A stretch of DNA of 64,000 bases from Erodium maritimum (taxonomy: Eukaryota; Streptophyta; Magnoliopsida; Geraniales; Geraniaceae), in NCBI GenBank assembly GCA_963921825.1, contig OY997588.1, positions 81,969,043 through 82,033,042 of the forward strand, written 5' to 3'. The notes under the pieces are model-generated. The model saw only the letters and a program-made list of their open reading frames with translations, was not told where the DNA came from and made no database searches. This document shows, piece after piece, positions 1-36,451 of the stretch (the first letter of the stretch is position 1; every line of letters begins with the position of its first letter). Both the position numbers and the translations under genes were made by a program.

Positions 1-530
1 TGAGGATAGTCCTCAAGTCTGAACGCAAAGAATATGTCCTTGACAAGGCTGTCTCTAAGACCATATCAGAGTTACATGAAGTGTCATTAACTGCTGAGAA
101 GAATATCTCAGGGATCTGGGATCCAAGGATATTCTGATGGTCAACAAGGGAATTGGAAGTGGCAAGGGCTGGGCCCATGCGCACTTGGCAGGAAAGATGA
201 GACACCTGAGAATGTCTGCTTCTACTGCCAACAGCCTGGTCATTGGAACCGGGATTACAGGAAGTTCACGGCTGATCTGAAGAAGGGCAGTGGGACTGCG
301 CCTTCATCAAATAGCCTGGATGATCTGAAGAAGGGCGGTAGGACTGCGCCTTCATCAGGAAACCTGGATGATCTAAGGAAGGGCGGTGGGACCGTGCCTT
401 CATTCGGTATTAACTCTATAGAGCTACATCTCTCTACTTCCAAAGATTCATGGGTATTAGATACCATGACTGAATCTCACACATGCACTAATATATGGTG
501 GCTGAAAGTAGGAGAGATTTGAAAAGCACG
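1..530 (+). pseudogene. copia E0 gag remnant, zinc knuckle and protease
   Basis: Only the extreme N-terminal part of gag is present (up to about 110). It then jumps directly to the CCHC zinc knuckle (CFYCQQPGHWNRDYRKF, about 216-266), so most of the gag body is missing and the frame shifts at the joint. Three copies of a roughly 17-residue Lys/Gly/Ser-rich unit (DLKKGxGTAPSS type) follow at 273-405. The protease active site reads DTM where copia proteases have DTG (about 460-470). E1 and E2 show the same gag loss and also lack the DTG glycine. Confidence 0.8.
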
Positions 531-532
531 AA

Positions 533-1810
533 ATGGACCTCAGAGTTGTGGCAACTATTGTAGGATCCATGAGTCTTGCTTTGCCAAGAGGCCTTGTCTT
601 AGTATTGTATAATGTATATTGCATACCTACTTTTAGTAGGAATATTATATCTGTATTCGTGTTTGACAAGGAAGGATATAATGTTAATATTGGAAATGGA
701 GTTTTCAATGTTCTATGCAATGATATGTTTTATACCAGTACTGACATGGTTGGAGGATTGTACATATTAGATATGGGTAACAATGCCTCAAGTTCTATAT
801 ATTCTGTTAATACCAAGAGGTCTAAATCCAACGATTTAAACCTAACTCTGTTATGGTACTGTCATTTGGGTCGCATAAACAAGAAGCGCCTATCAGCACT
901 TCAGTAGTGCGGGCTTTCAGGTTCATTCGAATTCCATTCGATCGATAGGTGCAAGGTTTGTTTGATGGGAAAAATGACTAAAGTGCCCTTTATTGATCGC
1001 GATGAAAGGGCGGGTGAATTATTGGGGCTGATACACTCGAATGTGTGTAGACCAATAAGTTCACTTGCCAGGAGGGGTTTTAGCTACTTTATCACCTGTA
1101 CTGATGATTACAGTAAATATGGTTATGTCTATTCGGTGAGACATAAGTCTGAAGCTTTTGATAAATTCAAAGAGTTTAAGACTATAGTAGAAAACCAGCT
1201 CGACAAAGGTATTAAGGCACTTCGATTGGATCGAGGTGGAAAATACTTGACCACAGAGTTATTAGATCATCTAAAAGAGAATGGGATCCTTTTGGAATGG
1301 ACTCCTCCTAGGTCACTGTAGTTGAAAGGTGTAGCCAAACGGAGAAATCGAACATTGTTAGACAATGGTCTGTTCCATGATTAGTTGGACTGATCTCCCA
1401 ATCTCTTTTAGGGGTTTTGCTCTAGAGACGACTGCATTCATAGTGAATCGGGCTTCGGCGAATGGTGTGGAAGGGACACCATTTTAAAAATGGTACGGGA
1501 TGATGCCCGCTTTGTCCTTCCTAAATATTTGTGGTTGCGAGGCTTATGTGAAACATTTGGTTTCGACTAAGCTCGAACCAAGATTTGAGATATGCACCTT
1601 CGTGTGGTATCCCAAAGCAACAAGGGGATACTATTTCTACAATCCCAGTGAGAACATGGTGTTCGTCGCTTGGGGTGGGGTCTTTATGGAAAAGAAGTTT
1701 TGTTTCCAAAGACGTCATTGGGAGGACTGTGCATCTCGAAGAAATTCAGGATGGTACAGATCTGTCTAAACCAATTGACAACCCATTAGAAAGGAGCCAG
1801 AGATTGTCGT
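533..1810 (+). pseudogene. copia E0 GAG-pre-integrase and integrase remnant
   Basis: The GAG-pre-integrase segment (LTLLWYCHLGRINKKRLSALQ, then the Cys pair of the HHCC finger near 950-965) leads into an rve-type integrase core. The core has the D-rich stretch FITCTDDYSKYG at about 1090-1125 and a second acidic segment (LRLDRGGKYLTTELL) at about 1220-1260. An in-frame TAG at 1318-1320 stops the core where related elements continue with the ERRNRTL segment. A further stop at about 906 and frame changes after 1320 break it up. The 1500-1770 part is the integrase C-terminal region (YVKHLVSTKLEPR, then YFYNPSENMVFVA). Confidence 0.8.
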
Positions 1811-1857
1811 AGAGTGAGAACCAATTCCTGTTACAATTCCGGAAGGTCCAAGGCGAT

Positions 1858-2850
1858 TTGAAAGGGTCAATCTTCCACCTCCAAGATATGGTATCCGGAG
1901 GTGACAATGAAGTCATGGTGGATCACGATGATCCAGCCACCTTTCAAGAAGTCGTGGATGGGCCCGACTCCGAGTTATGGCTGGGAGCCATGAGGGAGGA
2001 AATGCAATCCATGTCGGACAACCGAGTCTGGGAACCGGTTGATCCCATCAATGGTGTGAGGACCATCGGATGCAAATGGATCTTCAAGGTGAAGATGGAC
2101 ATGGACAACAACCCTCTGACCTACAAAGCTCAACTGGTGGCGAAAGGTTATAGGCAGATCCAATGGATTGACTATGAGGAAACCTTCTCCCTAGTGGCTA
2201 TGGTCAAAATCGATCCAAATTCTTCTTGACATAACTGCGTATCATAATTACGAGATATGGCAAGTGGATGTCAAAACCGCTTTCCTAAATAGAAATTTGA
2301 CTGAGTACGTTTGTATGTCTCGGCCCAAAGGTTTTGACGATCCGAAGAATACGGGAAAGATTTATAAGTCGTTGAAATCCATTTATGGATTGAAACGAAC
2401 TTCTCGGAGTTGGATCCTTCGTTTTGATGAAGTTGTAATTGGATTTGGCTTAATCAAGAACGAGGATGAATCTTGCGTTTATAAGAAGGCTAGTTGGAGC
2501 AAGATTACCTTTCTGGTTCTCATTGAAAACGACATCACAACCTTGCACGGGACTAAAGTTTGGTTGAGGAAGTGTTTTTCAATAAAGGACTTAGGCGATG
2601 CTTCTTATATCTTTAGGATTAAGATATGTAGAGATCGCACCAAGAGGGTCTTGGATTTAAGTCAGGGAACCTATGTGAACAAGGCATTGAGTAGGTTCTT
2701 AATGCTCGATTCAAAGAAAGGACTCTTACCCACTAGTCATGGCATTCATCTCAGCAAGACTCAGTGTCCTAAGACACCTGATGAGCTGAAAAGGATGATG
2801 AGAATCCTATGCGCCTGGGGGCAGGATCGATCATATATGCCATGACATGT
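1858..2850 (+). pseudogene. copia E0 reverse transcriptase, YVDD box missing
   Basis: RVT_2 domain: the N-terminal segment (WLGAMREEMQSM, then TIGCKWIFKVK and LVAKGYRQIQWIDYEETFS) spans 1970-2190. After a frame break, the motif MDVKTAFLN starts at 2264 and the segment YGLKRTSRSW follows at about 2380. Where copia RTs carry the catalytic YVDD (about 2518-2530) this copy reads FLVLIENDI, so the aspartate pair and neighbouring residues are absent without a frame change. The copy cannot encode an active polymerase. E1 and E2 have the same gap. Confidence 0.85.
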
Positions 2851-3295
2851 ATGAGACCGGCTGTCTCGTAAGCCTTATGTTGTACCAGTAGACATCAGTC
2901 TAACCCGGGAAAGATGATGTTGAACTAGTCGTCGAAGGATGAGTAGACGTTAGTTTTCCAAGACAAATCCAGATGACTTTAGAAGTCAGTCAGGATATGT
3001 GTTTATGCTGAATGGCAGAGCTTTAGCTGGGAGAGCGTAAAGCAAGATACCATTGCCGAATCTACAACAAAGCCCAAGTACATGGATGCTGCAGAGGCAG
3101 CTAAGGAGGCTATGTGGATTTGGAAATTCACGGCAGGGTTGGATGTAATTAAAAACCCATCCAGCCTGGTGAATCCATTTTGCGACAACACAAGGGCCAT
3201 TGCGCAAGCTAAAAGCCCAGATCGCATAACAAATCCAAACATGTACTACGGCGTATCCATCTAATCAGAGAAATACTGAATTGAGGTGAAGTGAA

Positions 3296-4983
3296 TGTTA
3301 GTCTTAGTGCCCGTAGTTCAATCCTAAATGTCCAAATGTATATATCATCGTTAGCAATAAAATTAAAGCGGCTTTATATTACTTATGTGTTGGAATAATA
3401 TATCGATGTGTGCTCTGATCTATGCCCACCATGCGAATAGAACCATAGATCGAGATAGATCACACTCGATGGGTCCCTAGTCAACAAAGCTTCACTAGAA
3501 GCGACTAGTATGAAATATGGCTCTTTATGGCTTACGTTCTGTTAGTCATTGGAATGAGATTCCGGAGTCTGATCATAGATATCATGTGGGACATGATATT
3601 GGACGACCCGCCCTGAATATGTGCCATAGATTAAGTCATGAACATATTCAGTGTTGTAGCTTGTCATGTATCCTTAGACCAAGGAGTCTTTGTGATCGCT
3701 ATGTAGTCAACAACTGAGTTTGACCTGAGCCTAACGTTGTCCGTAACAGGGCTTCCATAACGGCCAGGATTGGCTTGGGGACGGGCTACATGAGTGACAC
3801 GAAAGACGACTAAGGGATTTATCCTTCATACTAAGGTATGGGAAAGATATTGGTTCTCGACCACTTGATCGAGAGTGACTGGAAGAATAGCATGGCCATG
3901 CACATGATACTGGGTATCATATCTTTAGTCATCTCACATATCAAGGAACGGTGATTGAGAATAATAAGGATGACGGCTCTATGCCTTATCTCAATCAGGA
4001 TATCGGAGATAAAAGGATAATGACAGGGACGACGGAAAGGTTAGAATCGACAGGGTCGATTCGCTATGTAGTGTCAGGCAATACTAAAGTCTCGTTAGTT
4101 GCCACTTAAATAGGATCAAGTAAAATGGGATTTTACGTTGATCTATTGACATGCATAAACCTAAGGGTCACACCGGAGGATGAAACTCATTGACATATTT
4201 ATGGAGAATGGCCAAAAGGGAGTTGTCTCGGGACATGACCAAAACTGGGTTTTGGGTCATGTGCCCGTAAGTGAATAGGACTTTACGGATCGAGACAAGG
4301 CTTGGAGTCTTGGGATTGATCGCGTCGGATAATGTTGGACATTTCCGGTATGGAAGGCTTGGAGGCGATGAGCGAATCACGGGACCTCGTTGGAAATGGC
4401 CATGGGCCATGTTCCAAGAGGCCCATGAAAGGCCCATGCAACCAAGGCCCATGGAACTAATTAATCAAGTCTTGATTAATTAGTGCTAAGTAAGCAAGAC
4501 AAGGATTAAGGTGTTGGTGATTCACCACCTAACCCAATCTTGTCTTGCCATACTTTGTCCTATTTACACCTTACTTGACACCATACTTGTCCCATGCCTT
4601 TAGTTGGACAAGTATGGGTTTTGTTATGTTTAAGTCATCTTTTTTCAACATAACAAACACAAGACAAGAATAGGAAACACATTTTCTCTCCCTCTTCCAT
4701 GGCCATTTCGGGTTTGGCTAGTTTCCTCCTCCATTTTTGTGTTCTTGAGTCCTCAAAGAGAAGAACTACGTGTCTTTGATTCCCATGTGGATACGTAGGC
4801 GTCTTGGAGACTCAAGCCAATCATTCGTTAACCGGTGTTCTTGTTTTGGTAAGAACTACTGCTGAATTTTTCTCTTATGAATCCATTCTTTGTTAGTTGT
4901 TTCATGGTTTTAATCGTCTCTTGGTTTTCCTTGATTTTCCGCTGCGAATTGGTTCATCTCCAACCCTACCTCGAGACCCAACA
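3296..4983 (+). mobile_element. solo LTR of the E family (1688 bp), TSD GTGAA
   Basis: It starts TGTTAGTC and ends GACCCAACA, with no internal region on either side. The flanks 3291-3295 and 4984-4988 are both GTGAA, a perfect 5-bp target duplication. The empty site is visible in E1 and E2, where the two RNase H halves are continuous. It probably arose by LTR-LTR recombination. Confidence 0.93.
4401..4656 (+). promoter_or_regulatory. LTR block: clustered GGCCCATG motifs and four inverted repeats
   Basis: GGCCCATG occurs at 4420, 4431 and 4446, and reversed at 4401-4408. It resembles plant site II (TGGGCY) promoter elements. Four hairpin-capable repeats follow: a perfect 13-bp arm CTAATTAATCAAG (4457-4483), GCAAGACAAGGATT with a one-base bulge (4494-4549), CCATACTTGTCC (4581-4617) and TTGTTATGTT (4621-4656). 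The block recurs in the other LTR copies. A role in transcription or RNA 3' end formation is an inference. Confidence 0.55.
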
Positions 4984-5110
4984 GTGAAGATAACCTATAT
5001 TGCAACAGATGATAACATAGCCAACCCTTTGACTAAGGCGGTGTCGCTGCCTGAACATGTTAGACATGTAAAGTCGATGGGGACATATTGGAGTTTAGAT
5101 TGGAACTAGG

Positions 5111-5123
5111 GCAAGTGGGAGAT
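5111..5123 (+). other. polypurine tract of E0
   Basis: GCAAGTGGGAGAT lies directly before the 3' LTR start at 5124. It would be the second-strand primer in reverse transcription. The same tract is at 18497-18509 (E1) and 28050-28062 (E2) on the minus strand, and a similar one precedes 56149. Confidence 0.8.
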
Positions 5124-6811
5124 TGTTAGTCTTAGTGCCCATAGTTCAATCCTAAATGTCCAAATGTATATATCATCGTTAGCAATAAAATCAAAACGGC
5201 TTTATATTACTTATGTGTTGGAGTAATATATCGATGTGTACTCTGATCTATGCCCACCATGCGAATAGAACCATAGATTTAGATAGATCATACTCGATGG
5301 GTCCCTAGTCAACAAAGCTTCATTAGAAGCGACTAGTATGAAAGATGGCTCTTTATGGCTTACGTTCTGTTAGTCATTGGAATGGGATTCCAGAGTCTGA
5401 TCATAGATATCATGTGGGACATGATATTGGACGACCCACCCTGAATATGTGCCATAGATTAAGTCATGAACATATTCAGTATCGTAGCTTGTCATGTATC
5501 CTTAGACCAAGGAGTCTTTGTGATCGCTATGTAGTCAACAACTGAGTTTGACCTGAGCCTAACGTTGTCCGTAACAGGGCTTCCATAACGGCCAGGATTG
5601 GCTTGGGGACGGGCTACATGAGTGACACGAAAGACGGCTAAGGGATTTATCCCTCATACTGAGGTATGAGAAAGATATCGGTTTTCGGCCGCTTGATCGA
5701 GAGTGACTGAAAGAATAGCATGGCCATGCACATGATACTGGGTATCATATCTTTAGTCATCTCACATATCAAGGAACATTGATTGAGAATAATAAGGATG
5801 ACGGCTCTATGCCTTATCTCAATCAGGATATCGGAGATAAAAGGATAATGACAGGGATGACGGAAAGGTTAGAATCGACAGGGTCGATTCGTTATGCAGT
5901 GTCAGGAAATACTAAAGTCTCGTTAGTTGCCACTTAAATAGGATCAAGTAAAATGGGATTTTACGTTGATCTATTGACATGCATAAACCTAAGGGTCACA
6001 CCGGAGGATGAAACTCATTGACACATTTATGGAGAATGGCCAAAAGGGAGTTGTCTCGGGACATGACCAAAACTGTGTTTTGGGTCATGTGCCCGTAAGT
6101 GAATAGGACTTTACGGATCGAGACAAGGCTTGGAGTCTTGGGATTGATTGCGTCGGATAATGTTGGACATTTACGGTATGGAAGGCTTGGAGGCGATGAG
6201 CGAATCACGGGACCTCGTTGGAAATGGCCACGGGCCATGTTCCAAGAGGCCCATGAAAGGCCCATGCAACCAAGGCCCATGGAACTAATTAATCAAGTCT
6301 TGATTAATTAGTACTAAGCAAGCAAGACAAGGATTAAGGTGTTGGTGATTCACCACCTAACCCAATCTTGTCTTGCCATACTTTGTCCTATTTACACCTT
6401 ACTTGACACCATACTTGTCCCATGCCTTTAGTTGGACAAGTATGGGTTTTGTTATGTTTAAGTCATCTTTTTTCAACATAACAAACACAAGACAAGAATA
6501 GGAAACACAACTTCTCTCTCCCTTCCCTTGCAATTTCGGGTTTGGCAAGCTCCCACCTCCATTTTTGTGTTCTTGAGTCCTCAAAGAGAAGAACTACGTG
6601 GCTTTGATTCCCATGTGGATACGTAGGCGTCTTGGAGACTCAAGCCAATCATTCGTTACCCGGTGTTCTTGTTTTGGTAAGAACTAGTGCTGAATTTTTC
6701 TCTTGTGAATCCATTCTTTGTTAGTTGTTTCATGGTTTTAATCGTCTCTTGGTTTTCCTTGATTTTCCGCTGCGAGTTGGTTCATCTCCAACCCTACCTC
6801 GAGACCCAACA
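5124..6811 (+). repeat. 3' LTR of copia E0 (1688 bp)
   Basis: It has the same length and ends (TGTTAG ... CCCAACA) as the solo LTR at 3296-4983 and is preceded by the RNase H end and purine tract. It abuts LINE coding sequence at 6812. No target duplication can be tested because the other end is outside the window. Confidence 0.93.
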
Positions 6812-11154: not shown

Positions 11155-11167
11155 TGGTATCAGAGCC
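11155..11167 (+). other. gypsy primer-binding site (tRNA-iMet)
   Basis: TGGTATCAGAGCC begins four bases after the LTR end and matches the usual plant initiator-Met tRNA 3' end complement. Confidence 0.85.
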
Positions 11168-14113: not shown

Positions 14114-14118
14114 GATGA

Positions 14119-18496: not shown

Positions 18497-18519
18497 ATCT
18501 CCCACTTGCCCTAGTTCCA

Positions 18520-18876
18520 ATCTAAACTCCAATATGTCCCCCATCGACTTTACATGTCTAACATGTTCAGGCAGCAACACCGCCTTAGTCAAAGGGTTGG
18601 CTATGTTATCATCTGTTGCAATATAGGTTATCTTCACTTCACCTCAATTCAGTATTTCTCTGATTAGGTGGATACGCCGTAGTACATGTTTGGATTTGTT
18701 ATGCGATCTGCGCTTTTAGCTTGCGCAATGGCCCTTGTGTTGTCGCAAAATGGATTCACCGGGCTGGATGGGTTTTTAATTACACCCAACCCTGCCGTGA
18801 ATTTCCAAATCCACATAGCCTCCTTAGCTGCCTCTGCAGCATCCATGTACTTGGCCTCTGTCGTAGATTCTGCCAT
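18520..18876 (-). pseudogene. copia E1 RNase H remnant
   Basis: Minus-strand AESTTEAKYMDAAEAAKEAM ... FCDNTRAIAQAK matches the copia RNase H tail. Here the region is continuous with the segment up to the purine tract, and so shows the empty site of the solo LTR found in E0. Confidence 0.78.
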
Positions 18877-18998
18877 TCAGCATAAACACATATCCTGACT
18901 GACTTCTAAAGTCATCTGGATTTGTCTTGGAAAACTAGCGTCTACTCATCCTTCGACGACTAGTTCAGCATCATCTTTCCCCCGGGTTAGACTGATGT

Positions 18999-20060: not shown

Positions 20061-20339
20061 GGAATTGGTTCTTACTCTACGACAATCTCTGGCTCCTTTC
20101 TACTGGGTTGTCAATTGGTTTAGACATATCTGTACCATCCTGAATTTCTTCGAGATGCACAGTCCTCCCAATGACGTCTTTGGAAACAAAACTCCTTTTC
20201 CATAAAGACCCCACCCTAAGCGACGAACACCATGTTCTCACTGGGATTGTAGAAGTAGTATCCCCTTGTTGCTTTGGGATACCACACGAAGGTGCATATC
20301 TCAGATCTTGGTTTGAGCTTAGTCGAAACCAAATGTTTC

Positions 20340-21164
20340 ACATAAGCCTCGCAACCACAAATCTTTAGGAAGGACAAAGCGGGCATCATCTCGTACCATT
20401 TTTAAAATGGTGTGCCTTCCACACCGTTCGTCGAAGACCGATTCACTATGAATGCGATTGTCTCTAGAGCATAACCCCTGAAAGAGATTGGGAGATCAGT
20501 CCAACTAATCATGGAACGGACTATTGTCTAACAATGTCTGATTTCTCCGTTTGGCTACACCTTTCAACTACAGTGTCCCAGGAGGAGTCCATTCCTAAAG
20601 ATTCCCATTCTCTTTTAGATGATCTAATAACTCTGTGGTCAAGTATTTTCCACCTCGATCCAATCGAAGTGCCTTAATACCTTTGTCGAGCTGGTTTTCT
20701 ACTTTAGTCTTAAACTCTTTAAATTTATCAAAAACTTCAGACTTATGTCTCACTGAATAGACATAACCATATTTACTGTAATCATCAGTAAATGTGATAA
20801 AGTAGCTAAAACCCCTCACGGCAAGTGAACTTATTGGTCTACACACATTCGAATGTATCAGCCCCAATAATTCACCCGCCCTTTCATCGCAATCGATAAA
20901 GTGCACTTTAGTCATTTTTCCCATCAAACAAACCTTGCACCTATCGATCGAATGGAATTCGAATGAACCCGAAAGACCGCACTTCTGAAGTGCTGATAGG
21001 CGCTTCTTGTTTATGAGGCCCCAATGACAGTGCCATAACAGAGTTAGGTTTAAATCGTTGGATTTAGACCTCTTGGTATTAACGTAATATATATAACTTG
21101 AGGCATTGTTACCCATATCTAATATGTACAATCCTCCAACCAAGTCAGTACTGGTATAAAACAT
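20340..21164 (-). pseudogene. copia E1 integrase remnant
   Basis: Minus-strand GAG-pre-integrase and integrase core (LTLLWHCHWGLINKKRLSALQ, CKVCLMGKMTK, FITFTDDYSKYGYVY, LRLDRGGKYLTTELL). The core ends in a TAG at the same position as in E0. The finger His region is changed (HCHWG instead of HCHLG). Confidence 0.78.
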
Positions 21165-21400
21165 ATCATTGCATAGAACATTGAAAACTCAATTTCCAAT
21201 ATTAACATTATATCCTTCCTTGTCAAACACGGATACAGATATAATATTCCTACTAAAAGTAGATATGCAATATACATTATACAATGCTAAGACAATTCCA
21301 CTTGGCAAAGCAAGACTCATGGATCCTACAGCAGTTGCCACCACTCTAAGGTCCACTTCGTGCTTTCCAAACCTCTCCTACTTTCAGCCACCATATATTA

Positions 21401-21985
21401 GTGCATGTGTGCGATTCAGTCCTGATATCTAATACAAATGAATCTTTGGAAGTAGAAAGATGTATCTCTATAGAGTTAATACCAGATGAAGGCACGGTCC
21501 CACCGCCCTTCCTTAGTTTATCCAGGTTTCCTGATGAAGGCGCAGTCCTACTGCCCTTCTTCAGATCATCCAGGCTATTTGATGAAGGCGCAGTCCCACT
21601 GCCCTTCTTCAGATCAGCCGTGAACTTCCTGTAATCCCGGTTCCAATGACTAGGCTGTTGGCAGTAGAAGCAGACATTCTCAGGTGTCTCATCTTTCCTG
21701 CCAAGTGCGCATGGGCCCAGCCCTTGCCACTTCCAATTCCCTTGTTGACCATCAGAATATCCTTGGATCCCAGATCCCTGAGATATTCTTCTCAGCAGTT
21801 AATGACACTTCATGTATCTCTGATATGGTCTTAGAGACAGCCTTGTCAAGGACATATTCTTTGCGTTCAGACTTGAGGACTATCCTCAAAATTCTGTACC
21901 TGTCCAAATAGTTTGTCCCATTTAGCTTGACCCTGTCAAGAATGGTTTTTAATGACAAACTATTAATGTTCGCTGAATTTGCCAT
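21401..21985 (-). pseudogene. copia E1 truncated gag, zinc knuckle and protease region
   Basis: Minus strand: the gag N-terminus MANSANINSLSLKTILDRVK begins at 21985, and within about 75 codons joins the zinc-knuckle region by the same deletion as in E0 and E2. The protease site reads DIR instead of DTG. The Lys/Gly/Ser repeat unit is present. Confidence 0.78.
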
Positions 21986-23527
21986 TTGATCTACAACAGA
22001 TAAAATTCAATCAGTAAACTGAATAAATTTTATGAAGATCAAGCTTAAACACCAACAATCAATTCTAAACCTTTAGAATCTGAAACCAAGATCCTTGATT
22101 CACTCGATTAAGCTGAACTAATGCTCACCACTTAATCGAGCTATGTAGGTAGGACTCCATCCAATCACATCCAATGTGACTCTTGGCTAGGGTATGCACT
22201 TATGTACACGGCTTACCCTATCTGTTACCCTAGCTCAACCTCAGGCTGAGAATCGTAGTCGGGTCCACCAATTTTCAACTATAACCCGTCACTATGTAGG
22301 TGCTCCGCTAATGCGCACGACACCCACATATGTCGTCCAAACCTACTACCCCGCTTTCCCATGGATGCTCTGCTAATAAGCACGAAACCCATAGGACGGG
22401 GAGGTAGTAAGGTGTTGATAATTGGGAGGTATCGGACATGACCTGTTTTTACTTGTCCGGTTGTGTTTAAAACTTTGACACATCCTAGATGCGATGAGCA
22501 CATCAACTACATTCCAAATGCAATGATGCCTCAAATTACATCCAATGTAATTCTTCCTTCGAACTCGTCAAATACATCCAATGTAATGACGATTCTAAGG
22601 GCTCACACACAAGGATTAAAATTCCAATTTTATCTTTGAATGTGAGGTGATATGCTCGGTAAATAAAGTTAAGCATGCAATTCTAAAACACATAGAATTA
22701 GTCATGCATAAATTAAACCAAGCATAAAGCGATAAATGTGCACATAATAGCCCCCTAAACTAACTCCCACTAGCTTCTTGAGCTCCACCGACTCCAAGCC
22801 GATGCAAACACCCGAAAAGCCACCAAATGACATTTTCGCCATTTCTTCGTCTTGAGTAAAATATTACAATTTAATACACGACTCACAGGTCGGGAATAAA
22901 TAAATATTACAAACAAGTGGTTCGACGACCACACCTTGAAATAATAATTACACGCTAACTCTAACGGCTCACAGGCCGTGAAAAGCGATAAATAATTAAA
23001 TCGAGCTTGGGGCTATTATGTACACCATGCCAACATCACATCACACATCGTGTTATTAAACAATCATGTTATCAAACATCATGCGATTTTCCGGTTTTAT
23101 TTAATAGCCAAGTTTCTAAAAATTTTGATGCTCGGTTTATCGAAACCGTTCAAAAATGAAACTTTTGAACATTTGATCTTCGAGTTCGTCATGACGGTTC
23201 CAAACTCTTCATAACTAACAAAACGGTTTAGCCTTGGCATATACACCATCCAATGGTCATGCTTGGCCTAGCTCCATCCAACGGAGCCCCGTTCGGTCCC
23301 GGTTTCGGCTCCCCGAGAGTCCCGCTCCCGAGACCCGAAAAATCAAATTTTTTTCAAAATTTCTAGATTTGAAATAATTTTCAAAAATTCATTTTACATG
23401 CATTAAATCCATAAACAAGAATTTAAAACATGTTATCAAACAATTTAGCAAAACAAGATGCCAAAAACGAAACTTTCAAGCAAAACCGAAACTTTGAACA
23501 CCGTCTTGTGAATCCCTAAGGTAGCAC
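21986..23527 (-). other. copia E1 leader with small hairpins
   Basis: About 1.5 kb between primer site and gag, without a reading frame of note. It contains hairpins with a 3-nt loop: TCACAT-CCA-ATGTGA (22165-22179), AATTACAT-CCA-ATGTAATT (22534-22552) and TACAT-CCA-ATGTA (22573-22585). A duplicated GGTGCTCCGCTAA-type unit lies near 22298-22385. Confidence 0.65.
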
Positions 23528-23540
23528 GGCTCTGATACCA
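23528..23540 (-). other. primer-binding site of E1 (tRNA-iMet)
   Basis: The minus-strand sequence TGGTATCAGAGCC lies one base from the LTR end at 23542. E2 has the same site at 32911-32923. Confidence 0.85.
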
Positions 23541-23541
23541 C

Positions 23542-24685
23542 TGTTGGGTCTCGAGGTAAGGTTGGAGATGAACCAACTCGCAGCGGAAAATCAATGAAAA
23601 CCAAGAGACGATTAAACCATGAAACAACTAACAAAGAATGAATTCACAAGTGAAAAATTCAGCATTATTTCTTACCAAAACAAGAACACCGGTTAACGAA
23701 TGATTGGCTTGAGTCTCCAAGACGCCTACGTAACCACATGGGAATCAAAGCCACGTAGATCTTCTCTTTGAGGACTCAAGAACACAAAAATGGAGGTGGG
23801 AGCTTGCCAAACCCGAAATTGCAAGGGAAGGGGGAGAGAAGTTGTGTTTTCTATTCTTGTCTTGTGTTTGTTATGTTGAAAAAAGATGACTTGAATATTA
23901 AAAAAATCATAATTGTCCAACTAAAGGCATGGGACAAGCATGGTGACAAGTAAGGTGTAAATAGGACAAAGTATGGCAAGACAAGATTGGGTTAGGTGGT
24001 GAATCACCAACACCTTAATCCTTGTCTTGCTTACTTAGTACTAATTAATCAAGACTTGATTAATTAGTTCCATGGGCCTTGGTTGCATGGGCCTGTCATG
24101 GGCCTCTTGGAACATGGCCCGTGGCCATTTTCAATGAGGTCACGTGATTCGCTCATCGCCTCCAAGCCTTCCATACCGGAAAAGTCCAACATTATCCGCC
24201 GCGATCAATCCTAAGACTACAAGCCTTGTCTCGATCCGTAAAGTCCTATTCACTTATGGGCGCATGACCCAAAACCCAGTTTTGGTCATGTCCCGAGACA
24301 ACTCCTTTTTGGTCATTCTCCATAAATGTGTCAATGAGTTTCATCCTCCGGTGTGACCCTTAGGTTTATGCATGTCAATAGATCAACGTAAAATCCCATC
24401 TTACTTGATCCTATTCAAGTGGCAACTAAAGAGACTTTAGTATTGCCTGACACTGCATAACGAATCGACCCTATCCATTCTAACCTTTCTGTCATCCCTG
24501 TCATTATCCTTTTATCTCCGATATCTTGATTGAGATAAGGCATAGAACCGACATCCTTATTATTCTCAATCACTGTTCCTTGATATGTGAGATGACTGAA
24601 GATATGATACCCAGTATCATGTGCATGGCCATGCTATTCTTTCAGTCACTCTCGATCAAGCGGCCGAGAACTGATATCTTTCCCA
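23542..24685 (-). repeat. 5' LTR of E1, first part
   Basis: Starts with the LTR's 3' end (TGTTGGGTCTCGAGG on the plus strand). It is interrupted after TCCCA (24681-24685) by E2 and continues at 34586-35128. Together the two parts give a full-length LTR of about 1687 bp. Confidence 0.9.
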
Positions 24686-27600
24686 TGTTGGGTCTCGAGG
24701 TAAGGTTGGAGATGAACCAACTCACAGCGGAAAATCAATGAAAACCAAAAGACGATTAAACCATGAAACAACTAACAAAGAATGGATTCACAAGAGAAAA
24801 ATTCAGCATTATTTCTTATCAAAACAAGAACACCGGTTAACGAATGATTGGCTTGAGTCTCCAAGACGCCTACGTATCCACATGGGAATCAAAGCTACAT
24901 ATTTCTTCTCTTTGAGGACTCAAGAACACAAAATTGGAGGTGGGTGTTAGTCTTAGTGCCCGTAGCTCAATCATAAATGTCCAAATGTATATATCATCGT
25001 TAGCAATAAAATTAAAGCGGCTTTATATTACTTATGTGTTGGAGTAATATATCGATGTGTGCTCTGATCTATGCCCACCATGCGAATAGAACCATAGATC
25101 GAGATAGATCACACTCGATGGGTCCCTAGTCAACAAAGCTTCACTAAAAGCGACTAGTATGAAAGATGGCTCTTTATGGCTTACGTTCTGTTAGTCATTG
25201 GAATGGGATTCCGGAGTCTGATCATAGATATCATATGGGACATGATATTGGACGACCCGCCCTGAATATGTGCCATAGATTAAGTCATGAACATATTCAG
25301 TGTTGTAGCTTGTCATGTATCCTTAGACCAAGGAGTCTTTGTGATCGCTATGTAGTCAACAACTGAGTTTGACCTGAGCCTAACGTTGTCCGTAACAGGG
25401 CTTCCATAACGGCCAGGATTGGCTTGGGGACGGGCTACATGAGTGACACGAAAGGCGGCTAAGGGATTTATCCCTCATACTGAGGTATGGGAAAGATATC
25501 GGTTCTCGGCCGCTTGATCGAGAGTGACTGAAAGAATAGCATGGCCATGCACATGATACTGGGTATCATATCTTCAGTCATCTCACATATCAAGGAACGG
25601 TGATTGAGAATAATAAGGATGACGGCTCTATGCCTTATCTCAATTAGGATATCGGAGATAAAAGGATAATGACAGGGACGACGGAAAGGTTAGAATCGAC
25701 AGGGTCGATTCGTTATGTAGTGTCAGGCAATACTAAAGTCTCGTTAGTTGCCACTTAAATAGGATCAAGTAAAATGGGATTTTACGTTGATCTATTGACA
25801 TGCATAAACCTAAGGGTCACACCGGAGGATGAAACTCATTGACACATTTATGGAGAATGGCCAAAAGGGAGTTGTCTTGGGACATGACCAAAACTGGGTT
25901 TTGGATCATGTGCCCGTAAGTGAATAGGACTTTACGGATCGAGACAAGGCTTGGAGTCTTGGGATTGATCGCGTCGGATAATGTTGGACATTTCCGGTAT
26001 GGAAGGCATGGAGGCGATGAGCGAATCACGGGACCTCGTTGGAAATGGCCACGGGCCATGTTCCAAGAGGCCCATGAAAGGCCCATGCAACCAAGGCCCA
26101 TGGAACTAATTAATCAAGTCTTGATTAATTAGTACTAAGTAAGCAAGACAAGGATTAAGGTGTTGGTGATTCACCACCTAACCCAATCTTGTCTTGCCAT
26201 ACTTTGTCCTATTTACACCTTACTTGACACCATACTTGTCCCATGCCTTTAGTTGGACAAGTATGGGTTTTGTTATGTTTAAGTCATCTTTTTTCAACAT
26301 AACAAAGACAAGACAAGAATAGGAAACACATTTTCTCTCCCTCTTCCATGGCCATTTCGGGTTTGGCTAGTTTCCACCTCCATTTTTGTGTTCTTGAGTC
26401 CTCAAAGAGAAGAACTACGTGGCTTTGATTCCCATGTGGATACGTAGGCGTCTTGGAGACTCAAGCCAATCATTCGTTAACCGGTGTTCTTGTTTTGGTA
26501 AGAAATAGTGCTGAATTTTTCTCTTGTGAATCCATTCTTTGTTAGTTGTTTCATGGTTTAATCGTCTCTTGGTTTTCATTGATTTTCTGCTGCGAGTTGG
26601 TTCATCTCCAACCCTACCTCGAGACCCAACAGTGGGAGCTTGCCAAACCCGAAATTGCAAGGGAAGGGGGAGAGAAGTTGTGTTTTCTATTCTTGTCTTG
26701 TGTTTGTTATGTTGAAAAAAGATGACTTGAATATAACAAAACCCATACTTGTCCAACTAAAGGCATGGGACAAGCATGGTGACAAGTAAGGTGTAAATAG
26801 GACAAAGTATGGTAAGACAAGATTGGGTTAGGTGGTGAATCACCAACATCTTAATCCTTGTCTTGCTTACTTAGTACTAATTAATCAAGACTTGATTAAT
26901 TACTTCTATGGGCCTTTCATGGGCCTCTTGGAACATGGCCCGTGGCCATTTCCAATGAGGTCCCGTGATTCGCTCATCACCTCCAAGCCTTCCATACCGG
27001 AAATGTCCAACATTATCCGACGCGATCAATCCCAAGACTCCAAGCCTTGTCTCGATCCGTAAAGTCCTATTCACTTACAGACACATGACCCAAAACCCAG
27101 TTTTGGTCATGTCCCGAGGAAACTCCCTTTTGGTCATTCTCCATAAATGTGTCAATGAGTTTCATCCTCCGGTGTGACCCTTAGGTTTATGCATGTCAAT
27201 AGATCAACGTAAAATCCCATTTTACTTGATCCTCTTTAAGTGGCAACTAACGAGACTTTAGTATTCCCTGACACTGCATAACGAATCGACCCTGTCGGTT
27301 CTAACCTTTCCGTCGTCCCTGTCATTATCCTTTTATCTCCGATATCCTGATTAAGATAAGGCATAGAGCCGTCATCCTTATTATTCTCAATCACTGTTCC
27401 TTGATATGTGAGATGACTGAAGATATGATACCCAGTATCATGTGCATGGCCATGCTATTCTTTCAGTCACTCTCGATCAAGCGGCCGAGAACCGATATCT
27501 TTCCCATACCGTAGTATGTGGGATAAATCCCTTAGCCGTCTTTCGTGTCACTCATGTAGCCCATCCCCAAGCCAATCCTGACCGTTATGGAAGCCCTGTT

Positions 27601-28049
27601 ACGGACAACGTTAGGCTCAGGTCAAACTCAGTTGTTGACTACATAGCAATCACAAAGACTCCTTGGTCTAAGGATACATGACAAGGTACGACACCGAATA
27701 TGTTCATGACTTAATCTATGGCACATATTCAGGGCGGGTCGTCCAATACCATGTCCCACATGATATCTATGATCAGACTCCGGAATCTCATTCCAATGAC
27801 TAACAGAACGTAAACCATAAAGAGTCATCTTTTATACTAGTTGCTCCTAGTGAAGCTTTGTTGACGAGGGACCCATCGATTGTGATCTATCTCGATCTAT
27901 GGTTCTATTCGCATTGTGGGCATAGATAAGAGCACACATCGATATATTACTACAACACAAAAGTAATATAAAGCCGCTTTAATTTTATTGCTAACGATGA
28001 TATATACATTTGAACATTTAGGATTGAACTACGCGCACTAAGACTAACA
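24686..28049 (-). repeat. 3' LTR of E2, split by a solo LTR
   Basis: Parts 24686-24944 and 26637-28049 join into one LTR with short losses (for example around 26905, where part of the GGCCCATG cluster is missing). The solo LTR at 24945-26631 lies between them. Confidence 0.9.
24945..26631 (+). mobile_element. solo LTR of the E family inside E2's 3' LTR, TSD GTGGG
   Basis: A plus-strand LTR of 1687 bp, TGTTAG ... CCCAACA, in the opposite direction to its host LTR. The flanks 24940-24944 and 26632-26636 are both GTGGG. It is the innermost level of the nest and so among the youngest insertions here. Confidence 0.94.
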
Positions 28050-28099
28050 ATCTCCCACTTGCCCTAGTTCCAATCTAAACTCCAATATGTCCCGATCGA

Positions 28100-28477
28100 C
28101 TTTACATGTCTAATATGTTTAGGCAGCGACAGTGCCTTAGTCAAAGGGTTGGCTATGTTATCATCTGTTGCAATATAGGTTATCTTCACTTCACCTCAGT
28201 TCAGTATTTCTCTGATTAGGTGGATACGTCGTAGTACATGTTTGGATTTGTTATGCGATCTGGGCTTTTAGCTTGCGCAATGGACCTTGTGTTGTCGCAA
28301 AATGGATTCACCGGGCTAGATTGGTTTTTAATTACACCCAACCCCGCCGTGAATTTCCAAATCCACATAGCCTTCTTAGCTACCTCTACAGCATGCATGT
28401 ACTTGGCCTCTGTCGTAGATTCGGCAATGGTATCTTGCTTTACGCTCTCCCAGCTAAAGCTATGTCATTCAGCATAA
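28100..28477 (-). pseudogene. copia E2 RNase H remnant
   Basis: Minus-strand CDNTRSIAQAKSPDRI with upstream EVAKKAMWIWKFTAGLG identifies the RNase H tail (28398-28216). The adjoining end near the purine tract is uninterrupted. Stops occur downstream. Confidence 0.75.
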
Positions 28478-28688
28478 AACACATATCCTGACTGACTTCT
28501 AAAGTCATCTGTATTCGTCTTGGAAAACTAGCGTCTACTCATCATTCGACGACTAGTTCAGCATCATCTTTCCCCCAGGTTAGGCTGATGTCTACTGGTA
28601 CAACATAAGGCTTACGAGACGTTCGGTCTCATACATGTCATGGCATATATGATCGATCCTACCCCCAAGCGCATAGGATTCTCATCAT

Positions 28689-29650
28689 CTAATTCAGCTC
28701 ATCAGGTGTCTTAGGACACTGAGTATTGCTGAGATGAATGCCATGACTAGTGGGTAAGAGTCCTTTCTTTGAATCGAGCATTAAGAACCTACTCAATGCC
28801 TTGTTCACATAGGTTCCCTGACTTAAATCCAAGACCCTCTTGGTGCGATCTCTACATATCTTAATCCTTAAGATATAAGAAGCATCGCCTAAATCCTTTG
28901 TTGAAAAACACTTCCTCAACCAAGCTTTAGTCTCGTGCAAGGTTGGGATGTCGTTTTCAATGAGAACCAGAAAGGAAATCTTGCTCCCATTAGCCTTCTT
29001 ATAAACGCAAGATTCATCCTCGTTCTTGATTAAGCCAAATCCAATTACAGCTTCATCAAAACGAAGGATCCAACTCCGAGAAGTTCGTTTCAATCCATAA
29101 ATGGATTTCAACAACTTATAAATATTTCCCTTATTCTTCGGATCGTCAAAACCTTTGGGCCGAGACATACAAACGTACTCAGTCAAATTTCCATTTAGGA
29201 AAGCGGTTTTAACATCCACTTGCCATATCTCGTAATTATGATACGCAGTTATGTCAAAAAAAATTTGGATCGATTTTGACCATAGCCACTAGGGAGAAGG
29301 TTTCCTCATAGTCAATCCATTGGATCTGCCTATAACCTTTCGCCACCAGTTGAGCTTTGTAGGTCAGTGGGTTGCCGTCCATGTCCATCTTCACCCTGAA
29401 GATCCATTTGCATCCGATGGTCCTCACATCATTGATGGGATCAACCGGTTCCAAGACTCGATTGTCCGACATGGATTGCATTTCCTCCCTCATGGCTCCC
29501 AGCCATAACTCGGAGTCGTGCCCATCCACGACTTCTTGAAAAGAGGCTGGATCATCGTGATCCACCATGACTTCATTGTCACCTCCGGATACCATATCTT
29601 GGAGGTGGAATATTGATCCTTTCAAATCGCCTTGGACCTTCCGGAATTGT
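28689..29650 (-). pseudogene. copia E2 reverse transcriptase, YVDD box missing
   Basis: Minus-strand RVT_2 motifs as in E1; the stretch 29625-29254 is identical at protein level to E1 20031-19660. The catalytic region reads FLVLIENDIPTLHETKAWL, with YVDD absent. The RT is split into two frames at about 29230-29260. Confidence 0.85.
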
Positions 29651-29949
29651 AATAGGAATTGGTTCTTACTCTACGACAATCTCTGGCTCCTTTCTACTGG
29701 GTTGTCAATTGGTTTAGACATATCTGTACCATCCTGAATTTCTTCGAGATGCACAGTCCTCCCAATGACGTCTTTGGAAACAAAACTCCTTTTCCATAAA
29801 GACCCCACCCTAAGCGACGAACACCATGTTCTCACTGGGATTGTAGAAGTAGTATCCCCTTGTTGCTTTGGGATACCACACGAAGGTGCATATCTCAGAT
29901 CTTGGTTTGAGCTTAGTCGAAACCAAATGTTTCACATAAGCCTCGCAAC

Positions 29950-30765
29950 CACAAATCTTTAGGAAGGACAAAGCGGGCATCATCCCGTACCATTTTTAAA
30001 ATGGTGTCCCTTCCACACCCTTCGTCGAAGCCCCATTCACTATGAATGTGGTCGTCTCTAGAGCCTAACCCCAGAAAGAGATTGAGAGATCACTCCAACT
30101 AATCATGGAACGGACCATTGTCTAACAATGTCTGATTTCTCCGTTTGGCTACACCTTTCAACTATAGTGTCCCAGGAGGAGTCCATTCCAAAAGGATCCC
30201 ATTCTCTTTTACATGATCTAATAACTCTATGGTCAAGTATTTTCCACCTCGATCCAATCGAAGTACCTTAATACCTTTGTCGAGCTGGTTTTCTACTTTA
30301 GTCTTAAACTCTTTGAATTTATCAAAAGCTTCAGACTTATGTCTCACCGAATAGACATAACCATATTTACTGTAATCATCGGTAAATGTGATAAAGTAGC
30401 TAAAACCCCTCCTGGCAAGTGAACTTATTGGTCTACACACATTCGAATGTATCAGCCCCAATAATTCACCCGCCCTTTCATCGGGATCGATAAAGGGCAC
30501 TTTAGTCATTTTTCCCATCAAACAAACCTTGCACCTATCGATCGAATGAAATTCGAATGAACCCGAAAGCCCGCACTTCTGAAGTGCCGATAGGCGCTTC
30601 TTGTTTATGCGGCCCAAATGACAGTGCCATATGCCATAACAGAGTTATGTTTAAATCGTTGGATTTAGACTTCTTGGTATTAACGTAATATATAGAAATT
30701 GAGGCATTGTTACCCATATCTAATATGTACAATCCTCCAACCAAGTTAGTACTTGTATAAAACAT
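29950..30765 (-). pseudogene. copia E2 integrase remnant
   Basis: Minus-strand GRINKKRLSALQ, CKVCLMGKMTK, FITFTDDYSKYGYVY and LRLDRGGKYLTIELL. The TAG stop (at about 30164) falls at the site shared with E0 and E1. The upstream pre-integrase part (30765-30600) is in another frame. Confidence 0.78.
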
Positions 30766-30877
30766 ATCATTGCATAGAACATTGAAAACTCCATTTCAAA
30801 TATTAACATTATATCCTTCCTTGTCAAACACGGATACAAATATAATATTCCTACTAAAAGTAGGTATGCAATATACA

Positions 30878-31586
30878 TTATACAATACTAAGACAAGGCC
30901 ACTTGGCAAAGCAAGTCTCATGGATCCTACAGCAGTTGCCACAACTCTGAGGTCCACTTCCTGCTTTCCAAACCTCTCCTACTTTCAGCCACCATATATT
31001 AGTGCATGTGTGAGATTCAGTCCTGGTATCTAATACCCATGAATCTTTGGAAGTAGAGAGATGTAGCTCTATAGAGTTAATACCGGATGAAGGCACGGTC
31101 CCACCACCTTTCCTTAGATCATCCAGGTTTCCTGATGAAGGCGCAGTCCTACTGCCCTTCTTCAGATCATCCAGGCTATTTGATGAAGGCATAGTCCCAC
31201 TACCCTTCTTCAGATCAGCCGTGAACTTCCTGTAATTCCGGTTCCAATGATCAGGCTGTTGGTAGTAGAAGCAGACATTCTCAGGTGTCTCATCTTTCCT
31301 GCCAAGTGCGCATGGGCCCCACCCTTGCCGCTTCCAATTCCCTTGTTGACCATCAGAATATCCTTGGATCCCAGATCCCTGATATATTCTTCTCAGCAAT
31401 TATTGACACTTCATGTAACTCTGATATGATCTTAGAGACAACCTTGTCAAGGAAGTATTCTTTGCGTTCAGACTTGAGGACTATCCTCAAAATTCTGTAC
31501 CAGTCCAAATAGTTTGTCCCATTTAGTTTGACCCTGTCAAGAATGGTTTTTAATGATAAACTATTAATGTTCGCTGAATTTGCCAT
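30878..31586 (-). pseudogene. copia E2 truncated gag, zinc knuckle and protease region
   Basis: Minus-strand gag start MANSANINSLSL at 31586, the same internal gag loss as in E1 and E0, a zinc-knuckle-like CFYYQQPDHWNRNYRKF in which one Cys is replaced, and protease DTR instead of DTG. Confidence 0.78.
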
Positions 31587-32910
31587 TTGATCTACAACAG
31601 ATAAAATTCAATCAGTAAACTGAATAAATTTTATGAAGATCAAGCTTAAACATCAACAATCGATTCTATACCTTTAGAATCTAAAACCAAGATCATTGAT
31701 TCACTCGATCAAGCTGAACGAAGGCTCACCACTCAATCGAGCTATGTAGGTAGGACCCCGTCCAATCACATCCAATGTGACTCTTGGCTAGGGTATGTAC
31801 TTAAGTACACGGCTTACCCTATCTGATACCCTAGCTCAACCCTAGCTGAGAATCGTAGTCGGGTCCACCAATTTTCAACTATGACCCGCCACTATGTAGG
31901 TGCTCCGCTAAGGCGCACGACACCCACATATGTCGTCCAAACCTACTACCTCGCTTTCCCATGGATGCTCCGCTAAGGCGCACGACACCCATAGGACGGG
32001 GAGGTAGTAAGGTGTTGAGAATTGAGAGGTATCGGACATGACCCGTTTTTACTTGTCCGGTTGTGTTTAAAACTTTTGGCACATCCTAGATGCGATGAGC
32101 ACATCAACTACATTCCAAATGTAATGATGCCTCCAATTACATCCAATGTAATTCTTCCTTCGAACCCGTCAACTACATCTAATGTAATGATGGTTCTAAG
32201 GGCTCACAAACAAGGATTAAAACCAATTTTATCTTTTCATGTGAGGTGATATGCTCGGTAAATAAAGTTAAGCATGCAATTCTAAAACACATATAATTAA
32301 TCATGCATAAAATAAACCAAGCATAAAGCGATAAATGTGCACATAATAGCCCCCTAAACTAACTCCCACTAGCTTCTTGAGCTCCACCGACTCAAAGCCG
32401 ATGCCAACACCCGAAAAGCCACCAAATTACCTTTTCGCCCTTTCTTCGTCTTGAGCAAAAAAGTTACAAATTAATACACGACTCGCAGGTCGGGAATAAA
32501 TAAATATTACAAACAAGTGGTTCGACGACCACACCTTGAAAGAATAATTACAAGCTAACTCTAACGGCTCGCAGGCCGTGAAAAGCGATAAATAATTAAA
32601 TCGAGCTCAGGGCTATAATGTGCACCATGCCAACATCACATCACACGTCGTGTTATCAAACAATCATGCTATCAAACATCATGTGATTTTTCGGTTTTAT
32701 TTAATAGCCAAGTTTCGAAATTTTTTGATGCTCGGTTCCAAACTCGTCATAGCTAAAAAAACGGTTTAGCCTTAGCATAGCAACCATCCAATGGTCATGG
32801 TTGGCCTAGGTCCGTCCAATGGAGCCCCGTTCGGTCCCAGTTTCGGCTCCCCGAGAGTCCCTAAGGTAGCACGGCTCTGAACACCGTCTTGTGAATCCCT
32901 AAGGTAGCAC
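31587..32910 (-). other. copia E2 leader with small hairpins and a short duplication
   Basis: Shorter than the E1 leader because of a deletion near 32860; CCCTAAGGTAGCACGGCTCTGA is present twice (from about 32858 and 32898). Hairpins: TCACAT-CCA-ATGTGA (31766-31780), TACATT-CCA-AATGTA (32109-32123), AATTACAT-CCA-ATGTAATT (32135-32153), TACAT-CTA-ATGTA (32174-32186). Confidence 0.65.
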
Positions 32911-32924
32911 GGCTCTGATACCAC

Positions 32925-34580
32925 TGTTGGGTCTCGAGGTAAGGTTGGAGATGAACCAACTCGCAGCGGAAAATCAATGAAAACCAAGAGACGATTAAAC
33001 CATGAAACAACTAACAAAGAATGAATTCACAAGAGAAAAATTCAGCATTATTTCTTACCAAAACAAGAACACCGGTTAACGAATGATTGGCTTGAGTCTC
33101 CAAGACGCCTACGTAACCACATGGGAATCAAAGCCACGTAGATCTTCTCTTTGAGGACTCAAGAACACAAAAATGGAGGTGGGAGCTTGCCAAACCCGAA
33201 ATTGCAAGGGAAGGGGGAGAGAAGTTGTGTTTTCTATTCTTGTCTTGTGTTTGTTATGTTGAAAAAAGATGACTTGAATATAAAAAAACTCATACTTGTC
33301 CAACTAAAGGCATGGGACAAGCATGGTGACAAGTAAGGTGTAAATAGGACAAAGTATGACAAGACAAGATTGGGTTAGGTGGTGAATCACCAACACCTTA
33401 ATCCTTGTCTTGCTTACTTAGTACTAATTAATCAAGACTTGATTAATTAGTTCCATGGGCCTTGGTTGCATGGGCCTTTCATGGGCCTCTTGGAAAATGG
33501 CCCGTGTCCTTTTCCAACGAGGTCCCGTGATTCGCTCATCGCCTTCAAGCCTTCCATACCGGAAATGTCCAACATTATCTGACGCGATCAATCCCAAGAC
33601 TCCAAGCCTTGTCTCGATCCGTAAAGTCCTATTTACTTACGGGCACATGACCCAAAACCCAGTTTTGGTCATGTCCCAAGACAACTCCCTTTTGGCCATT
33701 CTCCATAAATGTGTCAATGAGTTTCATCCTCCGGTGTGACCCTTAGGTTTATGCATGTCAATAGATCAACGTAAAATCCCATTTTACTTTATCCTCTTTA
33801 AGTGGCAACTAACGAATCGACCCTGTCGATTCTAACCTTTCCGTCGTCCCTGTCATTATCCTTTTATCTCCGATATCCTTATTGAGATAAGGCATAGAGC
33901 CGTCATCCTTATTATTCTCAATCACTGTTCCTTGATATGTGAGATGACTGAAGATATGATACCCAGTATCATGTGCATGGCCATGCTATTCTTTCAGTCA
34001 CTCTCGATCAAACGGCCGAGAACCGATATTTTTCCCATACCGTAGTATGAGGGATAAATCCCTTAGCCGTCTTTTGTGTCACTCATGTATCCCGTCCGCA
34101 AGCCAATCCTGGCCGTTATGGAAGCCTTGTTACGGAAAACGTTAGGCTCAGGTCAAACTCACTTGTTGACTACATAGCGATCACAAAGACTCTTTGGTCT
34201 AAAGATACATGACATGCTACGACACCGAATATGTTCATGACTTAATCTATGGCACATATTCAGGGCGGGTCGTCCAATACCATGTCCCACATGATATCTA
34301 TGATCAGACTCCGGAATCTCATTCCAATGACTAACAGAACGTAAGCCATAAAGAGCCATCTTTCATATTAGTCGCTTCTAGTAAAGCTTTGTTGACTAGG
34401 GACCCATCGAGTGTGATCTATCTCGATCTATGGTTCTATTCGCATTGTGGGCATAGATAAGAGCACACATCGATATATTACTACAACACAAAAGTAATAT
34501 AAAGCCGCTTTAATTTTATTGCTAACGATGATATATACATTTGAATATTTAGGATTGAACTACGGGCACTAAGACTAACA
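32925..34580 (-). repeat. 5' LTR of E2 (1656 bp)
   Basis: A full LTR with both ends, directly after the primer site. It has lost a short segment near 33810 between two AACGA repeats. Confidence 0.9.
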
Positions 34581-36446: not shown

Positions 36447-36451
36447 ACTGT

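Follow-up and report, generated by a model that had tools for sequence, protein, structure and literature searches.

A high-copy copia family of Erodium maritimum with broken catalytic sites, very probably mobilised in trans

Introduction

How do retrotransposons that carry the same disabling lesions come to stand in a genome as separate insertions? The question is raised by three copia elements, here called E0, E1 and E2, in a 64,000-nucleotide stretch of the Erodium maritimum genome (assembly GCA_963921825.1, contig OY997588.1, positions 81,969,043 to 82,033,042 of the forward strand; the whole stretch is called the window). An original prediction, made from the letters of the window, held that a dead source copy had been amplified in trans by an autonomous relative. 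We followed this up in the window and in the genome (763 Mb, 40 contigs), distinguishing a deleted family, i.e. copies with a gap in reverse transcriptase (RT), from a YVDD or intact family of relatives that keep the YVDD box. Judged from sequence, E0, E1 and E2 are very probably members of a single non-autonomous copia family, long-lived and high in copy number, that was mobilised in trans, exchanged its U3 and leader for those of helper type and acquired its lesions stepwise.

Results

Three independent insertions

The anatomy of the elements was derived from self-comparison and boundary reading of the window. Their long terminal repeat (LTR) is about 1688 bp long, starts with TGTTAG and ends with CAACA; target-site duplications (TSDs) are given with each insertion.

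1..6811, plus strand: E0, copia element of the deleted family; 5' LTR upstream of the window (L009, 6722-8409); TSD TGAAC/TGAAC
5124..6811, plus strand: 3' LTR of E0
17493..35128, minus strand: E1, outer span; TSD GCATG/ACATG, one mismatch
17493-18496, minus strand: 3' LTR of E1, containing internal deletions
18497-23541, minus strand: internal part of E1
23542-24685 and 34581-35128, minus strand: 5' LTR of E1, interrupted by E2
24686..34580, minus strand: E2, nested inside the 5' LTR of E1; TSD TCCCA/TCCCA
32924-34580, minus strand: 5' LTR of E2
26637-28049 and 24686-24944, minus strand: 3' LTR of E2, interrupted by a solo LTR (D, see below)

E0, E1 and E2 are independent copia insertions with their own 5-bp target duplications, as had been claimed for E1 and E2. 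The LTRs have the form TG...CA and are adjoined by a putative primer-binding site (PBS, presumably of initiator-Met type) and a putative polypurine tract (PPT), and the coding order is that of copia elements (protease, integrase, RT, RNase H). Pfam searches with ten pieces of the three elements returned RVT_2 in six, rve in three (one of them above the cut-off) and gag_pre-integrs in one, and no domain in the gag-protease piece of E2. The target of E1 belongs to another repeat family (window 8115-11152, 15750-17493 and 35130-36447); the member at 8115-11152 resembles this target, has no E1 insert and so gives the empty site.

Lesions common to the three elements

The following sites were read in E0, E1 and E2.

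2510..2536, plus strand: RT joint of E0, FLVLIENDI, YVDD missing
19353..19379, minus strand: RT joint of E1
28947..28973, minus strand: RT joint of E2
51..64, plus strand: gag joint of E0, some 410 nt of gag absent in comparison with the YVDD relatives
21825..21838, minus strand: gag joint of E1
31426..31439, minus strand: gag joint of E2
217..258, plus strand: zinc knuckle of E0, last Cys replaced by Tyr
454..468, plus strand: protease site of E0, VLDTM where DTG is expected
21421..21435, minus strand: protease site of E1, VLDIR
31022..31036, minus strand: protease site of E2, VLDTR
1034..1045, plus strand: integrase of E0, first catalytic Asp replaced by Asn
1235..1246, plus strand: integrase of E0, catalytic Glu replaced by Lys
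1319..1321, plus strand: integrase of E0, TAG stop
20643..20654, minus strand: integrase of E1, Lys in place of the catalytic Glu; HSNV at 20844-20855
30237..30248, minus strand: integrase of E2, Lys in place of the catalytic Glu; HSNV at 30438-30449

The original prediction had named the loss of YVDD, of the protease DTG and of the gag body at a common joint as well as a TAG at one integrase site, and each of these was found as described. The YVDD box is replaced by the same in-frame gap (net loss of 21 nt), and the 27 nt encoding FLVLIENDI are identical in all three elements. The gag joint is common to the three, with one substitution in E2, and so are the in-frame integrase TAG and the Cys to Tyr change in the zinc knuckle, where E2 has lost one further Cys. 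The integrases read HSNV and GGKY where the YVDD relatives hold Asp and Glu.

These lesions are a property of the family. We assembled 35 deleted copies (the three from the window, L072 and L073 fetched whole, and 30 loci among the RT-joint matches listed). The RT gap is present in 35/35, largely by construction since 32 were recruited via the joint; the integrase Asp is lost in 32/32 covered copies and the Glu likewise in 32/32, a stop occupies the integrase TAG site in 31 of the 32 covered, and the protease Gly is absent in 5/5 covered. At each of seven codons, read in the frame of the intact element L070, between 26 and 34 of the 35 copies have a stop of one and the same kind. The deleted family thus lacks the open gag-pol frame, DTG, integrase D,D,E and YVDD of an autonomous copia element. 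It also falls outside three known non-autonomous classes: large retrotransposon derivatives (LARDs) are without pol-derived sequence and terminal-repeat retrotransposons in miniature (TRIMs) are very short, whereas this element is about 8.5 kb long with most of pol present; elements of BARE-2 type have lost the gag start and conserve the remaining pol, whereas here lesions disable the gag body as well as protease, integrase and RT.

Thousands of deleted copies and hundreds of YVDD relatives

Genome-wide counts are pattern matches, not elements, and some of the places lie in tandem arrays. Allowing at most 3 mismatches, the RT joint was found at 2386+2387 = 4,773 places, the gag joint at 2333+2286 = 4,619 and the YVDD relatives, searched with a more permissive, degenerate 35-mer, at 385+425 = 810; the reversed-pattern controls gave 0 in all three cases. 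The outcome is the one that had been predicted, i.e. many copies with the gap and fewer with YVDD. With exact flanks the RT joint occurred at 1737+1712 places, and the deleted spacing was present in all 100 among the matches listed. Anchors placed outside the joint returned the deleted spacing at 751+763 = 1,514 places and a spacing of 12-40 nt at 0 places genome-wide; an earlier search for intact copies of the same lineage also gave 0 matches, a weak result as its left anchor lay partly inside the joint. If all 4,773 places were full-length copies of about 8.5 kb, the family would occupy about 40 Mb, which is an upper estimate.

Both families also form tandem arrays, as expected from recombination between LTRs. 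Those of the deleted family have a period of about 6.77 kb, corresponding to one LTR plus the internal part (C1:14735609-14749191, C1:42503055-42528951 and others), and one of the YVDD family has a period of 7264 (C1:51259446-51266744).

Recent movement of the deleted family

Two deleted copies, L072 and L073, have LTR pairs that are 100% identical over 1688 and 1690 bp and perfect TSDs (AGCAC and GTCGG), which indicates that the family moved very recently; both were chosen from exact matches and are thus biased towards young copies. The gag joint led to two further copies, one at 24.0 Mb and the other at 11.87 Mb. Both carry the RT gap and have perfect TSDs (GTCAA and TAAGG), with Kimura two-parameter distances (K2P) of 0.011 and 0.003 between their LTRs. 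A third copy picked in this way (6.83 Mb) had no 3' LTR or RT joint where expected, and its 3' end was unreadable. In the window, K2P between the LTRs is 0.0059 for E0, 0.039 for E2 and 0.057 (1004 sites) for E1. Both ends were read in seven deleted elements, namely E0, E1, E2, L072, L073 and the two readable copies picked by the gag joint; their TSDs are all different, and six are perfect while that of E1 has one mismatch. At 1.3e-8 substitutions per site and year, a rate for grasses, the dated deleted insertions span 0 to about 2.2 million years. Young copies exist in both families, with dated LTR pairs from seven deleted and only two intact elements. In the young copy at 24.0 Mb about 98 bp are absent near the end of both LTRs (L079 about 1772, L080 about 2633), so this LTR variant is itself mobile.

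An intact relative and a mosaic history

The YVDD family includes L070, which has a single open frame of 1350 aa with DTG, integrase D and E and YVDD, an LTR pair that is 99.9% identical and a perfect TSD (CCGAG). Pfam identified Retrotran_gag_2, zf-CCHC, gag_pre-integrs, rve and RVT_2 in its product. In L071, YVDD is present and the frame is broken; its LTRs are 99.2% identical and its TSD (ATCGG) is perfect.

Comparison of the young deleted copy L073 with L070 revealed a mosaic. Over LTR columns 1-1200 the two are 94-99% identical per 100 columns and over the rest of the LTR 62-84%; the drop is sharp at its onset and ends at the PBS. Behind it, identity is 94.9% in the leader and 87.3% in the stretch from integrase through RT to RNase H. 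We use U3 as an operational name for the part of the LTR ahead of the break. The leader is untranslated, about 1.3-1.55 kb long from PBS to gag start (L009 8410-9943; window 21889-23541 and 31490-32923) and strongly conserved between the two families.

Given a synonymous divergence of 0.255 between the families, U3 and leader are far too alike for common descent with pol at the neutral rate. Two old, decayed YVDD relatives, L053 and L064, served as reference. In pol, L073 has 111/907 mismatches to L070 and is further from it than L053 (74/1013) and L064 (62/1016); in U3 the order is reversed (16/440 for L073, 49/440 for L053 and 32/440 for L064; Fisher p 1.3e-6 and 2.3e-4 for the pol/U3 contrast of L073 with L053 and L064, respectively). 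Constraint alone is therefore no explanation. When the old copies replace L073, the same contrast is weaker (p 0.0014 and 0.037 for E2, 3.3e-5 and 0.0022 for E1). The leader of L064 is 93.9% identical to that of L070 (505 bp) and 92.5% to that of L073 (453 bp). The histories of U3 and pol conflict, and this conflict makes it probable that the dead lineage captured promoter (U3) and leader of its helper, the direction from helper to dead lineage being inferred.

Exchange of LTR parts may extend further. The YVDD-type L048 adjoins a deleted-family-like U5 (97% over 447 bp), and at L076 1585-2099 the U5 stretch of L048 stands directly ahead of the last 68 bp of its leader; this locus is perhaps a recombinant.

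Order of the lesions

Anchors outside the RT joint also uncovered an earlier form of the joint (5 of 100 among the matches listed), and the earliest form was counted at 33 places distributed over nine contigs. One such early copy, L083, has the RT gap and the gag joint while the protease Gly (DTG) and the integrase Asp and Glu are intact. Three copies found by the earliest joint, read over the integrase stretch only, continue the series: L088 keeps Asp, has Lys for Glu and lacks the TAG; L089 keeps Asp and has both Lys for Glu and the TAG; L087 has Asn for Asp and the TAG, with its Glu codon now a stop. This nested order, inferred from four copies, suggests stepwise decay. In a tree of 28 sequences (about 900 columns, lesion columns removed), L083 and then L084 branch between the YVDD clade and the remaining deleted copies (supports 1.00, 0.999 and 0.938). 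The LTR ends of L083 differ at 11/77 sites, which marks it as old, a rough estimate from only 77 bp of 5' LTR (L085).

Other features of the window

Three solo LTRs were identified in addition to the three elements.

3296..4983, plus strand: solo LTR A, inserted within E0, some 135 bp ahead of the E0 3' LTR; TSD GTGAA/GTGAA
12430..14113, plus strand: solo LTR C; flanks GCTGA/GATGA, 4/5 match
24945..26631, plus strand: solo LTR D, nested in the 3' LTR of E2; TSD GTGGG/GTGGG

The LTR at 3296 had been considered as the closing LTR of E0 and was rejected in this role, as it is a nested solo LTR and E0 has its own 3' LTR at 5124-6811. A Gag-like open frame at 14136-14441 belongs to a different element, probably of gypsy type as judged by eye, and the stretch 62433-63156 holds a tandem-like repeat of three copies with a period of about 265 bp.

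Discussion

An element without YVDD, without the gag body and with both integrase residues changed is unable to provide for its own copying and integration. Broken machinery together with young insertions flanked by clean TSDs argues for help in trans, and the PBS, PPT and LTR ends retained by the deleted family are what is expected of a passenger RNA. We propose that a founder copy came to lack the gag body and the catalytic box of RT. For packaging, copying and integration its RNA would since have depended on proteins supplied in trans, and their most likely source is a related autonomous copia family of which intact copies persist in the genome. Later source copies would have gained protease and integrase lesions in succession and handed them on. 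Compatibility with the helper may have been kept by swapping U3 and the untranslated leader to the helper type, with pol and R-U5 staying older sequence of the lineage's own. Such an exchange could occur by template switching between co-packaged RNAs: in the reverse transcription cycle the first strand transfer can join the U3 of one template to the R-U5 of another, which would place a break inside the LTR.

In its amplification in trans the original prediction is supported, and the RT joint, which it had expected to differ between copies if it was wrong, has the same nucleotides in E0, E1 and E2; its single dead source gives way to a succession of dead sources, in line with the early-joint copies that have fewer integrase lesions, and the helper is a candidate deduced from the intact relatives. 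We lean, on balance, towards a fuller account: a single defective lineage, whose RT and Gag failed before its protease and integrase did, would for millions of years have lived off an autonomous sister family, which it outnumbers about 6 to 1 by pattern counts; through template switching it would have captured U3 and packaging leader and so stayed mobile, with R-U5 and pol still its own, and its decay steps would survive as fossils in the genome.

Several points weigh against the explanation proposed here. An intact member with the deleted lineage's own pol type was not found in the genome searches, so that the direct progenitor was not seen. R-U5 differs strongly between the families, which makes a different helper possible, and in U3 the old copy E2 (33/440) is no nearer to L070 than L064 is (32/440). 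The 100 places listed include six same-strand neighbours 6.77-6.78 kb apart; tandem or ectopic recombination accounts for part of the copy number. For the order of lesions the copies are few and decayed. Two pol codons of L083 are stops already: one is a TAA at the TAG site, which we take to have arisen independently, and the other, at codon 673, is a TAG that the later copies possibly share, 27 of them having TAA there. The Glu codon of L087 is a stop as well, and with four early-joint copies decay after insertion can mimic steps. Finally, relaxed selection during amplification is not proven. Nonsynonymous to synonymous counts are 47:28 for variants in at least 3 deleted copies and 202:79 for singletons (p=0.16, leaning to fewer nonsynonymous changes among the shared variants); for fixed differences to the intact family they are 140:88, which differs from the ratio among singletons (p=0.014) and not from that among shared variants (p=0.89). 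By this weak test, which leans slightly the opposite way, no selection on the remaining frames is evident, and dN/dS does not separate the families (0.54 within the deleted, 0.49 within the intact).

Mobilisation in trans could also have relied on another copia lineage, the likeness of U3 and leader being an older shared trait. The divergent R-U5 and the U5 next to L048, which hints that exchange may involve several lineages, speak for this possibility, as does the fact that a single candidate family was examined closely; since L053 and L064 are nearer to L070 in pol and further from it in U3 than L073, the likeness is recent rather than ancestral, and young insertions are present in both families. 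We consider this alternative unlikely, if worth keeping in mind. A different process, gene conversion among neighbouring copies, might have spread the lesions without amplification of a lesioned source. E1 and the nested E2, both old insertions, show 0/300 and 1/300 differences in two consecutive windows (about 19689-20289 and 29279-29879) compared with about 2-11% in other windows, and local gene conversion between them is likely; E1 and E0 are likewise close at the leader end and gag start (3/300, 2/156 and 2/300 differences). The near-identical stretch of about 600 bp ends about 300 bp upstream of the RT joint and contains none of the named lesions, the same joints recur at thousands of places, and young copies elsewhere with their own TSDs carry the RT gap. 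These copies rule out gene conversion as the main cause, and as such it is very improbable.

Segmental duplication of one dead locus, which the original prediction had named as the finding that would speak against it, agrees with the placement of some copies in tandem arrays. It is rejected as the main cause, and we give it almost no credence, because the TSDs differ in all seven deleted elements with both ends read, E2 sits in the middle of an LTR of E1 and a related repeat without E1 exists for the target site. The protease lesion and both integrase lesions are G-to-A changes on the coding strand, as one burst of strand-specific hypermutation of the source copy during reverse transcription would produce. 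The fixed differences from intact to deleted family (G>A 61, C>T 40, A>G 39 and T>C 26 of 239) and the singletons (G>A 85, C>T 60, A>G 21 and T>C 12) follow a similar pattern with no strand bias beyond ordinary decay, a spectrum read without a proper outgroup as eight other copia loci gave no nucleotide match; the stepwise series in the early-joint copies also argues against a single burst, and we hold this origin to be highly doubtful.

Among published cases the non-autonomous sub-families of the wheat copia element RLC_Angela are the closest that we found, with nearly the same situation. That article (PMC9744471) describes non-autonomous elements similar in size to autonomous ones, more than 85% identical to them and degenerate in coding sequence, and an LTR tree in conflict with the internal tree, which its authors read as a change of helper. 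The deleted family, too, is of its partner's size and has a degenerate coding sequence common to many copies, with regional identities that range between about 80% in the gag pieces and about 96% in U3; its LTR history follows the partner and its internal history does not, which holds here for U3 only and against two older relatives. It differs from the wheat case in that the conflict lies within the LTR, U3 following the helper and R-U5 not, that the leader follows the helper as well and that early-joint copies order the lesions.

Other partner systems are more distant. The soybean non-autonomous family SNRE reportedly amplified after gaining the LTRs of another element, rice Dasheng is said to be a high-copy non-autonomous gypsy element without pol, with RIRE2 as its putative autonomous partner, and Athila of Arabidopsis is of gypsy type. 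SNRE is a different element, and in Erodium U3 and leader follow the helper while R-U5 does not; unlike Dasheng, the Erodium family keeps most of pol as dead sequence. LTR swapping of SNRE (Du et al. 2010) and the pair Dasheng/RIRE2 are both cited in PMC3701649. For Athila, PMC2410132 reports non-autonomous families, recombination among distant families and many non-autonomous elements that keep intact frames under purifying selection, of which we see no clear sign here. Non-autonomous pararetroviruses of grasses, according to PMC5491270, keep pace with their partners by recombination that homogenises noncoding regulatory sequence; these are endogenous pararetroviruses and not LTR retrotransposons, and the principle, as with Athila, is the same. 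In the partly available literature on YVDD loss in non-autonomous elements and on partner systems we found no description of the Erodium family, which is not proof of absence.

The deleted family is a natural case of an LTR element that, without intact catalytic sites in RT, integrase and protease, has reached thousands of copies, some of them recent. Within one genome it makes testable which cis-sequences need to be common to parasite and helper, here U3 and leader and apparently not R-U5, and in which order functions are lost once proteins are supplied in trans. It is also a warning for annotation, as a copia element with most of pol in place is no sign of autonomy.

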